Assembly: GCF_013314975.1 (NCBI RefSeq)
Contig: NZ_JABTYH010000009.1
Coordinates: 62,001 to 126,000 of the forward strand
Length of the DNA: 64,000 nt
Direction of reading: 5' to 3'
Origin: Pseudarthrobacter oxydans
Lineage (GTDB): Bacteria; Actinomycetota; Actinomycetes; Actinomycetales; Micrococcaceae
Shown here: piece after piece, positions 7,616 through 12,263 of the stretch
Layout: each line of letters starts with the position of its first letter
How positions within the stretch are numbered: position 1 is the first letter of the stretch
Notes under the pieces: generated by a model
What the model was told of the DNA's origin: nothing
Databases searched by the model: none
Seen by the model: only the letters and a program-made list of their open reading frames with translations
Program-made: the position numbers and the translations under genes

Positions 7616-9438
7616 GCGCCGCCTCCTTCGGCACTGCCAATGAAGACAATGCCCACCTCAGCAAGGATGACAGCAGGGCCGTCCGACGGCGGTCACTGGC
7701 GCTCCTGCGGTCACTGATCCGGCCGGTGCGGCTCCGGTTCTGGCTGACCATCGCCATGGTGGTCCTCTCCCAGGCTGCAAGGGTGGCCGGGCCGGCGCTG
7801 ATCGCCTTTGGCATCGACCGCGCCCTGCCCGCCCTGCAGGCCGGAGACAACGCGCCCCTGGTGTTCACCGGCGCCGCCTACCTCCTTGCCGCCATTGCGA
7901 CGGCGGGGCTCACGGCTTTGTACGTCACGTCCACCGCGAAGCTCAGCCAGGCCATGCTGCTGGACCTGCGCCTGCGGGTCTTCCGCCAGACCCAGGGGCT
8001 GAGCCTCGAGTTCCACGAAAAGTACACGTCCGGACGGATCATCGCCCGGCAGACGTCGGACCTGGAAGCCCTTCGCGAACTCCTGGACTCCGGTGTCAGC
8101 TCGCTGGCGTCAGGCATGCTGTTCATGGTCTTCACTGCCATCACCGTGTTTGCCCTGGACTGGCGGAGCGGGCTGCTGGTGCTGGCCGCCGGCGTGCCCA
8201 TGTTCTTCCTGGCCCGCTGGTACCAGAAGCACTCCCAGATCGCCTTCCGCGAATCCCGGGTGGTGTCCGCCCGGCTCATTGTGCACTTCGTGGAAACCAT
8301 GACCGGCATCCGCGCCGTCAAGGCGTTCCGCAAGGAGCAGGAAAACTCCGGCCGGTACGGCCAGTTGGCCGAGGACTACCGGCGGGTCACCGTACGCTCC
8401 ATCAACCTCAACGGCATCTTCCAGCCGGGGCTGGTCCTGATCGGCAACGTCTGTGTGGCTGTGGTCCTGCTCTTCGGCGGCTTCCGCGTCCTCGGCGGCG
8501 ACCTGGAGGTCGGGGTGTTGCTGGCACTCATCCTTTCCACCAAGCGGTTCTTCCAGCCGGTGGACCAGATGGCCATGTTCTACAACTCCTTCCAGAGCGC
8601 GCAGGCGGCGCTCGAGAAGGTCTCGGGGCTCCTGGAGGAGGTGCCGACGGTCCGCCCGCCCAAGAACCCGGTCGCCCTGAAGCAGGCCAGAGGATCCATC
8701 GACTTCAACGGCGTGGAGTTCCGCTACGGCGACGGACCGCTGATCGTTCCCACCCTGGACCTGCACATTCCCGCAGGCCAGACTGTTGCCCTGGTGGGCC
8801 AGACGGGTGCCGGCAAGTCCACGCTGGCGAAGCTGATAGCACGCTTCTACGACGTCTCCGCCGGATCGCTCACGCTCGACGGGGTCGACGTCCGCAACCT
8901 GGGCACCACGGATCTCCGCCGGAACATCGTGATGGTCACCCAGGAGGCCTTCCTGTTCAGCGGCTCGGTGGCAGACAACATCGCCCTGGGCCGCCCGGAG
9001 GCTTCCCGGGCGGAGATCGAGGAAGCGGCCAAAGCCGTAGGCGCCCACGACTTCATCATGGAACTGCCCGAAGGCTACGACACCGACGTCAACAAGCGCG
9101 GCGGCCGTGTCTCGTCCGGGCAGCGGCAGCTCATCAGTTTTGCCCGGGCGTTCCTGGCCCGACCTGCCGTACTGATCCTGGACGAGGCGACGTCCTCCCT
9201 GGACATCCCCTCCGAGAGGCTGGTGCAGCAGGGCCTTGCGCGGCTCCTGGCGGGCACGGAAGCGGCCCGCAGGACGGCCCTCATCATCGCCCACCGCCTG
9301 TCCACGGTGGAGACCGCTGACAGGGTGCTGGTGGTGCACGACGGCCGGATCGTGGAGGACGGAAGCCCGGCTGAACTCATTGGCGGGGGCGGCCGCTTTG
9401 CGGACCTCCACGGCGCCTGGAAGGATTCGCTGGTCTGA
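7612..9438 (+). CDS. ABC exporter half-transporter, catalytic partner
   Basis: A 608-residue exporter half with a long cytosolic N-terminus (about 35 residues), six membrane helices and a nucleotide-binding domain. Walker A is GQTGAGKST, Walker B is [10 protein letters not shown] with the catalytic glutamate, and the H-loop is IAHRLST. Its signature motif is VSSGQRQ rather than LSGGQ. In the heterodimer this altered signature would face the first subunit's Walker A/B (with Asp instead of Glu), so both faults fall in one ATP site and the other site is fully canonical. That fits the asymmetric exporters of the TM287/288 and LmrCD kind. Translationally coupled to the preceding gene. Confidence 0.93.
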
Positions 9439-9493
9439 TTTCGCATCGGGACCCGGCATCGGCTATCCTTGTAAAGTTGCTTTTGCAGCGGAT

Positions 9494-9570
<77 letters not shown>

Positions 9571-9572
9571 AA

Positions 9573-9608
9573 AAGGAAGAGGGTCTCCATGCGGAGGCCC
9601 TCTTCCTT
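9573..9608 (+). terminator. Intrinsic terminator after tRNA-Pro
   Basis: A 16-bp stem (9573-9588 with 9593-9608, one G-U pair) around a 4-base loop, starting two bases after the tRNA CCA and followed by CTT. Confidence 0.85.
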
Positions 9609-9619
9609 CTTAAAAGGAA

Positions 9620-9647
9620 TGGCCCCGAAGCTTGCGCTCCGGGGCCA
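9620..9647 (-). terminator. Intrinsic terminator of the small peptide gene
   Basis: TGGCCCCG (9620-9627) pairs with CGGGGCCA (9640-9647); the inner bases can extend the stem with one mismatch. On the minus strand it is followed by TTCCTTTT, as expected for the end of the peptide gene at 9675. Confidence 0.65.
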
Positions 9648-9674
9648 TCCTCGCCTCCATGTGTGAGGAAGCTA

Positions 9675-9890
9675 TTACATCGGGTCGGGCCAGTTGCCTA
9701 CGTACGTGGTGTACGAGGTATCCGTGCTCTTGTCCTTGGTCTTCTTGGACATCGGGTCCGGCCAGTTTCCTACGGCTACCGACGTTCCGGCAGAGTCCCC
9801 GAGGGAACCGGCAGACAGGACAGCTGGAGCCGCAGCAGAAAAAGCAAGTGCCCCTGCCAGTACGGCTGCGGTTGCGATCTTCTTCAACAT
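9675..9890 (-). CDS. Small secreted peptide precursor with two VGNWPDPM repeats
   Basis: A 71-residue precursor. Residues 1-27 are a clear Sec signal peptide (MLKKIATAAVLAGALAFS, then AAAPAVLSA as likely cleavage region). The secreted part of about 44 residues holds VGNWPDPM at 40-47 and again at 64-71, where the second copy is the very C-terminus. The linker between them is Lys/Ser/Thr-rich. The two DNA copies differ at two bases and both changes are synonymous, so the peptide itself seems to be under selection. The ATG at 9890 has GAGGA eight bases upstream. The gene is divergent from an XRE-TPR regulator, the arrangement of RRNPP quorum-sensing pairs. I do not recognise the family; the signalling role is inference. 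Confidence 0.75.
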   Translation of the reverse strand: MLKKIATAAVLAGALAFSAAAPAVLSAGSLGDSAGTSVAVGNWPDPMSKKTKDKSTDTSYTTYVGNWPDPM

Positions 9891-9950
9891 AAATAGGTTC
9901 CTCAATACGAGTCGGATTCGTTACAAAGCCAGCACTGTCCTTGTTGACAT

Positions 9951-9964
9951 ACATTGTAAAATGT
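9951..9964. promoter_or_regulatory. Palindrome over the -10 box of the peptide gene
   Basis: ACATT, 4 bases, AATGT at 9951-9964. It overlaps the minus-strand -10 (TACAAT, 9953-9958) of the peptide promoter. A further inverted pair TTGACA (9944-9949) and TGTCAA (9978-9983) flanks it. It is a plausible binding site for the neighbouring XRE regulator. Confidence 0.45.
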
Positions 9965-9983
9965 TTTCCACAGGGACTGTCAA
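9953..9983 (-). promoter_or_regulatory. Sigma-70-type promoter of the peptide gene
   Basis: On the minus strand TTGACA (9983-9978) is a perfect -35 and TACAAT (9958-9953) a near-perfect -10, with a 19-base spacer. Expected start of transcription is near 9946, giving a leader of about 55 bases before the ATG at 9890. Confidence 0.6.
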
Positions 9984-10023
9984 GCATTTTGTACGAAGAC
10001 CGTCCGGAAAAGGAGGAAATCCC

Positions 10024-11289
10024 GTGGGCAACGGATTCGGGGAGAAGCTCCGTGCGGAGCGTCTCGAACGGGGGCTGACACAGGCGGAACTGGGAAAGGA
10101 CCTGTATTCCCCCAGCTATATTTCACTACTTGAGACCGGCCGCAGGGAACCTACGGCGGAGGTGATCGAGGAACTTGCACGCAGGCTGGAACTGGCACCC
10201 AAGGCGCTGGAAGCCTGGAGCCAGCCCATCTCGGTGAGCGACGCCGAATACGTCCTCGCCGGATTGTACGCAAGGCAGGCGTGGGACCTGAGGGACTATC
10301 AGCTCGCGGCAAGCCACGCCGCCACAGCTGCCAAGATAGCCCTCGAAGGCAGGAACACGAGCGCCTGGTGGAACATGACGTACATGCAGGCCGAGTGCCT
10401 CATCAAGCAGGGCAACTGGCAGGAATGCCAGCGCATCATGCAGCACCTGCTGGAGCACCCCATGGCCACGGAATCGGCCGGCCTCGCTGTACGGGCCCGC
10501 CAGATGCTCGCCGGCATCTCCCAGGGCCAGGGCCAGCTGAGCGCGGCGGTGGACCACGCCATGGAGGCCGTGCGGCTGTGTTCCCAGCTGCCGAAGGGTT
10601 CCACGCTCATCATCGGGGCGCACCGGGCACTGATCGGCGCACTTGCCGAAAGCGGCCGGCTCGACGAAGCCTGGAAATACTGCCAGGCGATGATCGACCA
10701 CGTGGATGAGCACTCCATGTCCCAGCTCGCCGGCGAAGTGGCGTGGGTGATCGGCAACGTGGCCTTCATGCGGCACGACTACCAGGAGGGCATCAAGCAC
10801 CACGAACGGGCTGCCCGGCTGCTCTCCCCCGCCAACGACATCGAACTGTGGGCCCGGTTCAACAAAGCCTCGGCTGCCGTTCGCCTGTCCTCCGGGATCG
10901 TTGAGCCGGAGACGCTGTCATCGATCGAACGGGCCGAACTGGCCCTGTCCATCGTGGGTGGCAACAAGTCCGACCAGCTGGAGGTCGCCTTCATCCGCGC
11001 CCGCTGGCTGTACCTGACCGGTGACATCGTTGCCGCCGTCGAGAAGCTCCGCGAAATCCATGCGGAACGCGCCAGCCTGGCAAAGCACACCGCCGGTGAA
11101 GTCTCGCTGCTGCTGGGCAAGTCCCTCAAGGCCGCGGGTGAATCCGAGGAAGCCCTGGTGCACCTCGAGGAAGCCCAGAAAGCCTTCAGTGCGGCAGGAG
11201 CGGCTGACCGCGTCCAGCAGGCGATGGACGCGGTCCTGGAAATAAAACTGGCCCAGCAGCGCGCCGCGGCCGCTGCCAAAGCCAGCTAG
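10024..11289 (+). CDS. XRE-family regulator with C-terminal TPR domain (RRNPP-like)
   Basis: A 421-residue protein. Residues about 5-60 are an XRE helix-turn-helix (FGEKLRAERLERGLTQAELG...SYISLLETGRREPT). The rest is all-helical with TPR-like pairs, for example ARQAWDLRDYQLAASHAATAA, AECLIKQGNWQECQRIMQHLL and AWVIGNVAFMRHDYQEGIKHHERAARLL. HTH followed by TPRs at about 420 residues is the plan of NprR/PlcR/Rap-type peptide receptors. The GTG at 10024 is preferred over upstream in-frame starts because AAGGAGG lies at 10010-10016 and the HTH starts right after it. It is divergent from the small secreted peptide gene. The protein may instead be a stand-alone TPR regulator; peptide binding is not shown by sequence alone. 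Confidence 0.88.
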   Translation: MGNGFGEKLRAERLERGLTQAELGKDLYSPSYISLLETGRREPTAEVIEELARRLELAPKALEAWSQPISVSDAEYVLAGLYARQAWDLRDYQLAASHAATAAKIALEGRNTSAWWNMTYMQAECLIKQGNWQECQRIMQHLLEHPMATESAGLAVRARQMLAGISQGQGQLSAAVDHAMEAVRLCSQLPKGSTLIIGAHRALIGALAESGRLDEAWKYCQAMIDHVDEHSMSQLAGEVAWVIGNVAFMRHDYQEGIKHHERAARLLSPANDIELWARFNKASAAVRLSSGIVEPETLSSIERAELALSIVGGNKSDQLEVAFIRARWLYLTGDIVAAVEKLREIHAERASLAKHTAGEVSLLLGKSLKAAGESEEALVHLEEAQKAFSAAGAADRVQQAMDAVLEIKLAQQRAAAAAKAS

Positions 11290-11324
11290 CAAAGCACCAT
11301 CCGCCGGGAGCAGCTGGGGCTCCG

Positions 11325-12263
11325 TCAGGCGAAGGTTTTCCCCGTCAGTTTCTCGTAGGCCTCGACGTAGCGGCCGCGGGTACGGTCAACAACCTCGTTG
11401 GGCAGCGCCGGTGGCGGCGTATCCGAGGACCTGTCCCAGCCTGATTCGGCAGACATCAGCCAATCGCGCACATACTGTTTGTCGTAGGACGGCTGTGCCT
11501 GGCCCGGCTGGTAGGTGGCGGCATCCCAGAAGCGCGAGGAATCCGGCGTCAGCACCTCATCCCCCAGGGTGATGAGCCCCGTCACCGGGTCATAGCCAAA
11601 TTCGACTTTTGTATCGGCCAGGATGATGCCCCGCTCACGGGTGATTTTCTCGGCGGTGTTGTAGATCTTGAGCGTCAGCTCGCTGAGGCGTCCGGCAATA
11701 TCGTCGCCAACCATCACCACCACGGCGTCGTAGGTGATGTTCTCGTCGTGCTCGCCCACCTCGGCTTTGGCCGATGGCGTGAAGATGGCACGGTCCAGCC
11801 GCGACCCGTCAACCAGGCCCTCCGGCAGCGGAATGCTGCACACAGTCCCCGAGGCTTTGTATTCCTGCAGGCCGGAGCCTGTGAGGTAGCCGCGGGCGAT
11901 GCACTCCACCGGGAACATGTCCAGCTTCTTGCAGATCATGGCCCGGCCTTCCACCTCGGCCGGGACGCCGTCTTCCACCGTGGAGCCCAGGACGTGGTGG
12001 TCCACGTCCAGCTGGTCGAACCACCACAGGCTGAGCTGGGTAAGGATGCGCCCCTTGTCCGGAATCAGGGAGGACAGGACGTGGTCATAGGCGCTGATCC
12101 GGTCGCTGGCCACCACCAGCACGCAGTCCTGGCCCATACGCTGCAGGACGGCCTCGTCAGCCGGCTCGTAGAGGTCCCTGACCTTGCCGGAGTAGACGTG
12201 CGTCCATCCGGGAAGGTCCAGGGTCTTGGTGTTGAAACCGCGGGGTGCTGGATCGTTGCTCAT
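11325..12263 (-). CDS. purC: Phosphoribosylaminoimidazole-succinocarboxamide synthase
   Basis: A 312-residue SAICAR synthase, which joins aspartate to CAIR in the eighth step of IMP synthesis using ATP. Diagnostic parts are YSGKVRDLYE near the N-terminus (nucleotide site), VVASDRISAYDHVL, ECIARGYLTGSG and VDTKVEFGYD-like ADTKVEFGYD. The length fits the longer yeast and actinobacterial form. Its ATG lies directly after the purD stop, so it is the second gene of a purD-purC operon. Confidence 0.97.
   Translation of the reverse strand: MSNDPAPRGFNTKTLDLPGWTHVYSGKVRDLYEPADEAVLQRMGQDCVLVVASDRISAYDHVLSSLIPDKGRILTQLSLWWFDQLDVDHHVLGSTVEDGVPAEVEGRAMICKKLDMFPVECIARGYLTGSGLQEYKASGTVCSIPLPEGLVDGSRLDRAIFTPSAKAEVGEHDENITYDAVVVMVGDDIAGRLSELTLKIYNTAEKITRERGIILADTKVEFGYDPVTGLITLGDEVLTPDSSRFWDAATYQPGQAQPSYDKQYVRDWLMSAESGWDRSSDTPPPALPNEVVDRTRGRYVEAYEKLTGKTFA

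Follow-up and report, generated by a model that had tools for sequence, protein, structure and literature searches.

A 64,000-nucleotide stretch of the Pseudarthrobacter oxydans genome, here called the window, carries a short gene for a repeat-bearing peptide next to a divergent gene for an XRE helix-turn-helix (HTH) protein with TPR repeats, raising the question of whether the two form a signaling pair. Cytoplasmic TPR-receptor peptide signaling has been described for Bacillota; its RRNPP(A) receptors have C-terminal TPR repeats and, except in Rap, an N-terminal XRE-type HTH. The sequence-only reading had described a 71-residue precursor carrying VGNWPDPM twice, once at the extreme C terminus, with DNA copies that differ only by two synonymous changes, divergent from a 421-residue XRE-TPR protein. 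All of this agreed with the open reading frames (ORFs) in Table 1: the two copies differ by GGC/GGA and CCC/CCG, and the 421-residue protein has both HTH and TPR matches.

Table 1. Positions in the window of the features discussed in the text
Feature	Position	Strand	Remarks
tRNA-Pro(CGG)	9494-9570		
Propeptide gene	9890-9675	-	ATG at 9890, 71 aa; signal-peptide-like N terminus, linker, 2x VGNWPDPM
Octapeptide copy 2, VGNWPDPM	9678-9701	-	Last eight residues; DNA pattern match
Octapeptide copy 1, VGNWPDPM	9750-9773	-	DNA pattern match
Operator-like inverted repeat TTGACA-N5-TGTAAA	9944-9960	+	Overlaps presumed -10 of peptide promoter
Palindrome ACATT-N4-AATGT	9951-9964		Right arm not conserved between genera
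Presumed -35 box TTGACA, peptide promoter	9978-9983	-	Fixed span from element
Receptor gene	10024-11289	+	GTG start, 421 aa; XRE helix-turn-helix and TPR superhelix
Receptor codons 127-132	10402-10419	+	Covariation of I127 and W132 with first peptide residue
Receptor codon 167 (Q here)	10522-10524	+	Q where peptide has V or T, H where it has I

The precursor begins with MLKKIATAAVLAGALAFSAAAPAVLSAGS, and signal-peptide character was scored by a simple rule (K/R followed by a 12-residue hydrophobic stretch). Searched across the whole genome, the VGNWPDPM DNA pattern occurred at exactly two sites, both in the propeptide gene (reversed control, 0). The precursor had no Pfam match and two NCBIfam matches far under the cut-off.

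Scanning a single genome from each species yielded 142 receptor relatives. The best 80 of these all came from Arthrobacter, Pseudarthrobacter, or Paenarthrobacter, and 80/80 of their loci had a divergent, signal-peptide-like ORF that carries the motif. With 30 more loci, including the window's own, we assembled an overlapping set of 110 close loci holding 97 distinct receptors (77 to 100% identical) and 98 distinct precursors. At every one of the 110 the precursor gene lay opposite the receptor gene, and the main precursor passed the signal-peptide rule. The octapeptide was mostly [V/I/T]GNWPDP[M/A/V], in one to five copies per precursor (1, 2, 3, 4, and 5 copies at 5, 50, 31, 22, and 2 loci), so that 105/110 loci had at least two. 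Among 295 genomes of the family, 144 had a receptor relative and 37 a tandem WPD...GNWPD DNA pattern, a pattern so strict that it misses the window's own gene; all 37 were receptor positive (P = 2e-13, ignoring kinship), and the reversed control gave 0.

The proposal that the octapeptide is under selection, and that the repeat is conserved in close relatives, held up well. Octapeptides were identical within 88/94 multicopy precursors, and pairwise comparison between copies gave 605 synonymous and 28 nonsynonymous changes (dN/dS proxy, 0.011). Of 262 copies, 155 were preceded by A, and the next position was a stop (89), R (56), S (53), K (20), or others. At five loci (L049, L050, L053, L054, and L056) the last of four copies ends in PDPV and the others in PDPM.

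To look beyond the close clade, we picked 60 regions from the listed receptor matches; they contain 62 sequence-divergent receptor ORFs. A related W-P peptide gene was found on the divergent strand at 32/62, with a [GW]-x-W-P motif at 31 loci and IDDWPH at one. Repeats among these included VGNWPDPS/A/T/F (four copies), VGNWPDA (four to six), PGNWPD (three), VGDWPH (eight), VGNWPDRF (five), and IGDWPN (three), and single-copy peptides ended in IGWWPN, IGNWPL, or GIWPY. A W-P finder combined with the signal-peptide rule scored 28/62 test regions compared to 0/62, 0/61, 0/62, and 4/62 control regions, the four control matches being W-P ORFs in downstream control regions. The proposal was to fail if homologous regulators commonly lacked the peptide gene. 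This was not the case in the close clade (110/110), but farther out the gene was often missing: a search of the divergent strand found no W-P peptide gene at 30/62 receptor ORFs. These 30 belong mainly to a 44 to 50%-identical branch, in which another gene abuts the receptor at several loci, and to several paralogues; one ORF is at a contig end. Possible propeptide-less RRNPPA receptors are discussed as "eavesdroppers" in one paper (PMC9765709). Four receptors at ~30% identity came from another family of the order; W-P peptides lay opposite two of them, with three TVGGSWPTSQD-like repeats in one case. Among 246 genomes of the class outside the order, three had a receptor match, without a convincing peptide.

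Profile searches matched the receptor to HTH_31 (8.9e-12), HTH_3, and TPR, with HTH_31 and TPR_12 over the cut-off; its score against Pfam RNPP_C was 12.9 bits, below the cut-off of 26.5. The predicted structure is a TPR superhelix (mean pLDDT, 77.9) with ten-residue means of 63 to 97 from residue 71 onward and below 50, i.e., low confidence, for the HTH. In fold comparisons, which aligned residues 70 to 418, the best matches were LGN/Pins TPRs (Z score of 26.6, root mean square deviation [RMSD] of 5.6, 339 residues aligned). RapI (Z 19.0, RMSD 7.5, 328 aligned) and NprR (Z 18.1, RMSD 9.5, 327 aligned) were also among the matches, and unrelated TPR proteins fit the fold better than either. A profile of the receptor family matched PlcR among solved structures (profile positions 3 to 207, E value of 3.6e-9). 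Generic HTH and TPR similarity could account for these matches to RRNPP receptors, so RRNPP membership by descent is unproven.

If peptide and receptor recognize each other, their residues may be expected to change together, and receptor-motif covariation had been named beforehand as something to look for. We examined the 97 distinct receptors from the close loci minus L026, a long branch. In 96/96 of the remaining receptors, residue 167 followed the first residue of the octapeptide: V with Q in 35, T with Q in 3, and I with H in 58; L026 obeys the same rule. Residues 127 (I or M) and 132 (W or L) each tracked peptide residue 1 in 95/96. On a FastTree topology, all six changes of the peptide residue shared a branch with a change at residue 167 (P = 1.7e-11, 197 variable columns); an IQ-TREE topology placed 5/5 and a tree built without residues 120 to 190 placed 9/9 changes on shared branches. 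A hold-out set of 43 rows was reduced to 20 distinct places, since 22 rows had receptors of the first set and one pair was the same place. The rule held in all 20, which are closely related to the first set, and the remaining rows agree. By TPR numbering, residues 127 and 167 each fall at helix A position 12 of two neighboring repeats, a usual ligand-facing position. Outside the close clade the rule breaks, as in L116 (V with H, 64% identity). Family-wide covariation of the other peptide positions, searched in 35 receptors, gave nothing convincing (best P = 5.7e-5, 324 columns), and no receptor column tracked both of the groups in the 97-row tree in which the last residue changed from M to A. 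We regard the covariation at residue 1 as the decisive new evidence for what appears, from these alignments, to be a match between peptide and receptor.

One pair of sister loci illustrates such a change. The precursors of L038 and L037 differ at 7 of 74 residues, two of which are V-to-I changes, one in each copy. Receptor codons 121 to 180 (window positions 10384 to 10563) look replaced in L038 relative to L037, the rest being 90 to 98% identical; identity is 90 to 96% over codons 1 to 120, 84% over codons 121 to 150, and 66% over codons 151 to 180. The pattern looks as if specificity had been swapped by recombination.

Of 61 genomes of the genus, 15 also carried the octapeptide at sites unlinked to the pair, 19 such sites in all (L237 to L239 and L271 to L286), as detected by a pattern that misses A-ending and T-type forms. 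Judged by eye, these unlinked ORFs are mostly leaderless, about 20 to 70 residues long, and preceded by a strong ribosome site (e.g., MQDRNRLIGNWPDPMKKGGI). An open frame ending in [FV]DPGS[ST]PD precedes 15 of the 19, and one of the other four (L280) adjoins a run of N. The protein with this ending in L239 had no Pfam or NCBIfam match, and Rfam searches at five of the orphan loci found nothing. Residue 1 of the unlinked peptide was of the resident type in 15/15 genomes (11 I and 4 V; P = 0.0007 when shuffled, a value that ignores kinship among these related genomes).

These observations bear on two other explanations. The covariation might be hitchhiking, with the peptide and the specificity segment moving together as one recombining block and no functional match between them; the two genes are neighbors, and the replaced-looking segment in L038 would suit such a block. 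However, L038 is not one linked block, because codons 1 to 120, which lie between, and most of the precursor stay L037-like, and the unlinked ORFs match the resident type too, although the 15 genomes are related and only four are V type. We consider hitchhiking very improbable. Alternatively, the peptide could be a receptor ligand that acts inside the producing cell, as a feedback ligand or coregulator, with secretion incidental or absent. The leaderless-looking unlinked ORFs of resident type favor this idea, as do two genera (g10 and g32) in which some receptors have nothing opposite them but short leaderless ORFs that end in IGDWPHA or VGDWPD (L141, L143, L147, L183, and L200/L202). Against it stand the signal-peptide character of every main precursor in the close loci and the tandem arrangement, which needs a protease to free the copies, and we judge a purely intracellular ligand unlikely. 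The short ORF that ends in IGDWPHA in L141 is interrupted by a frame change in L142, in the 420 bases that precede the receptor.

Thirteen receptor ORFs had no matched HTH. A W-P peptide gene lay opposite 11 of them, and the remaining two sit at a contig end or are truncated. Since the peptide gene persists opposite receptors that lack an HTH, it appears to be the TPR domain rather than the HTH that is the constant partner of the peptide. Ten of these loci were examined with ~3-kb flanks: a GGDEF-EAL gene followed downstream on the same strand in 8/10, a DUF7793-like match was present in 7/10 (in L168, the longest such match lies at another place in the locus), and 5/10 carried a hybrid histidine kinase on the upstream side. 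No GGDEF-EAL match was found at any of the 130 other loci searched. Examples of the GGDEF-EAL genes are L166:4500-6038, L169:4439-5971, L171:869-2503, and L164:5530-7131; at each of these loci the receptor has a divergent W-P peptide gene of its own, and often a DUF7793 gene intervenes and a hybrid histidine kinase lies upstream. An HTH-less locus is possibly a peptide-to-c-di-GMP module, in which the sister receptor would probably act by protein contact, possibly with the GGDEF-EAL enzyme of the adjoining gene.

The intergenic region contains a TTGACA-N5-TGTAAA element that is conserved between genera. The palindrome ACATT-N4-AATGT, proposed earlier as the receptor's binding site over the peptide -10 box, is indeed present there and overlaps the element, but it is not what is most conserved, as its right arm varies. 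A loose form of the element was found in 110/110 close loci, 21/49 divergent HTH loci, and 0/13 HTH-less loci, and its span to a -35-like box was 39 bases in 121/123 loci that have both. A sigma-70 scan of positions 9400 to 11400 called no promoter, and the peptide promoter is presumed from this conservation. Four peptide-less loci (L126, L128, L130, and L140) keep the element, so it need not serve the peptide. The genome under study has one exact site and three one-mismatch sites (reversed control, three). Across 25 genomes of the genus there were 26 exact sites (two in G289, one elsewhere; control, 1), confirmed at the receptor locus in 19 of the 25. With a single element site in each of 24/25 genomes, no regulon is visible, and searching these genomes with the element found no further targets. 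The position of the element over the presumed peptide -10 box fits autoregulation.

That no clear element occurs except at this gene pair could also mean that the peptide is only an output: the precursor might be an exported effector (an antimicrobial, metal-binding, or surface repeat peptide), with the XRE-TPR protein merely regulating it while sensing something else. Such an effector would not readily explain why TPR residues covary with the peptide or why HTH-less receptors retain the peptide gene, and the database searches with the precursor (no Pfam match, NCBIfam matches far under the cut-off) also speak against it. We hold this explanation to be very unlikely.

The surroundings of the pair include a tRNA-Pro gene, an ABC exporter pair, and purine-synthesis genes; Rfam searches near the pair found the tRNA only. 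The exporter pair had matches in 79/80 close loci, and its second gene in 13/60 divergent loci (64 to 87%). The tRNA lies between, and we do not claim the pair as the exporter of the peptide. The genome has nine genes of the oligopeptide-binding type (SBP_bac_5), whose presence proves nothing about reimport. A mobile-element origin was considered and set aside: phage records gave no match, and four Streptomyces plasmid proteins matched at ~27% identity.

Close-clade pairing, selection on the repeat, and covariation support the original reading of the locus as a peptide-receptor pair, and on these genomic grounds we think it probable that the propeptide and the divergent XRE-TPR protein are an autoregulated signaling pair. 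We propose that the precursor would leave the cell through Sec and be cleaved to give copies of a short peptide of approximately xGNWPDPM, where x is V, I, or T. Once mature, this peptide would reenter the cytoplasm, probably via one of the cell's oligopeptide permeases, and bind the concave groove of the receptor's TPR domain, with residues 127, 132, and 167 in or close to the pocket that receives residue x. This binding would alter the hold of the N-terminal HTH on TTGACA-N5-TGTAAA over the peptide promoter; hence the proposed autoregulation. We lean slightly toward a broader reading, namely, an undescribed actinobacterial signaling class of W-P peptides and TPR receptors in which a three-residue pocket would set V/I/T "pherotypes," HTH members would autoregulate, HTH-less members would lead to c-di-GMP enzymes, and unlinked leaderless ORFs would supply a second, intracellular input.

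By analogy, the arrangement would work like RRNPP signaling, here in Actinomycetota rather than Bacillota. It resembles the RRNPP(A) systems (PlcR-PapR, NprR-NprX, PrgX, Rgg/ComR, AimR, and Rap-Phr) in having a small propeptide gene beside a TPR receptor, and in both the receptors occur with or without an HTH. It differs from them in its W-P core, in having at least two copies as a rule, in HTH-less members beside GGDEF-EAL genes, and in its unlinked leaderless ORFs; the divergent propeptide gene also departs from the usual RRNPP gene order. RRNPPA genes are reported in Firmicutes, nearly all in Bacilli (PMC9765709), and Actinomycetota signals are described as typically enzyme-made small molecules (PMC10075063). 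Several pheromones per precursor are also seen in tandemly duplicated Phr propeptides (Rap3T/Phr3T and Rap105/Phr105; PMC11343458). Propeptide repeats of up to six copies are noted in PMC9765709, where repeats occur in 6.7% of atypically large propeptides, compared to 105/110 close loci here. Pheromone and TPR sensor change together in streptococcal ComR-ComS as well; that coevolution has experimental support (PMC8605241), whereas the system here, in another phylum, offers sequence covariation only. The Alo systems of Paenibacillus polymyxa (Bacillota; PMC7425212) are likewise genome-mined RRNPP-like peptide-receptor pairs. Among the open-licence papers listed by searches for the motif or for such systems in Actinomycetota or Micrococcaceae, there was no report of this one.

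These data point to an undescribed bacterial signaling system in Arthrobacter-type soil bacteria, outside the group with known systems of this kind. If this is right, common soil bacteria would have a pheromone language with words such as VGNWPDPM, IGNWPDPM, VGDWPH, IGWWPN, and others. Both the peptide words and the matching receptor residues could be read from genomes, and therefore specificity, cross-talk, and a possible c-di-GMP output would be directly testable.
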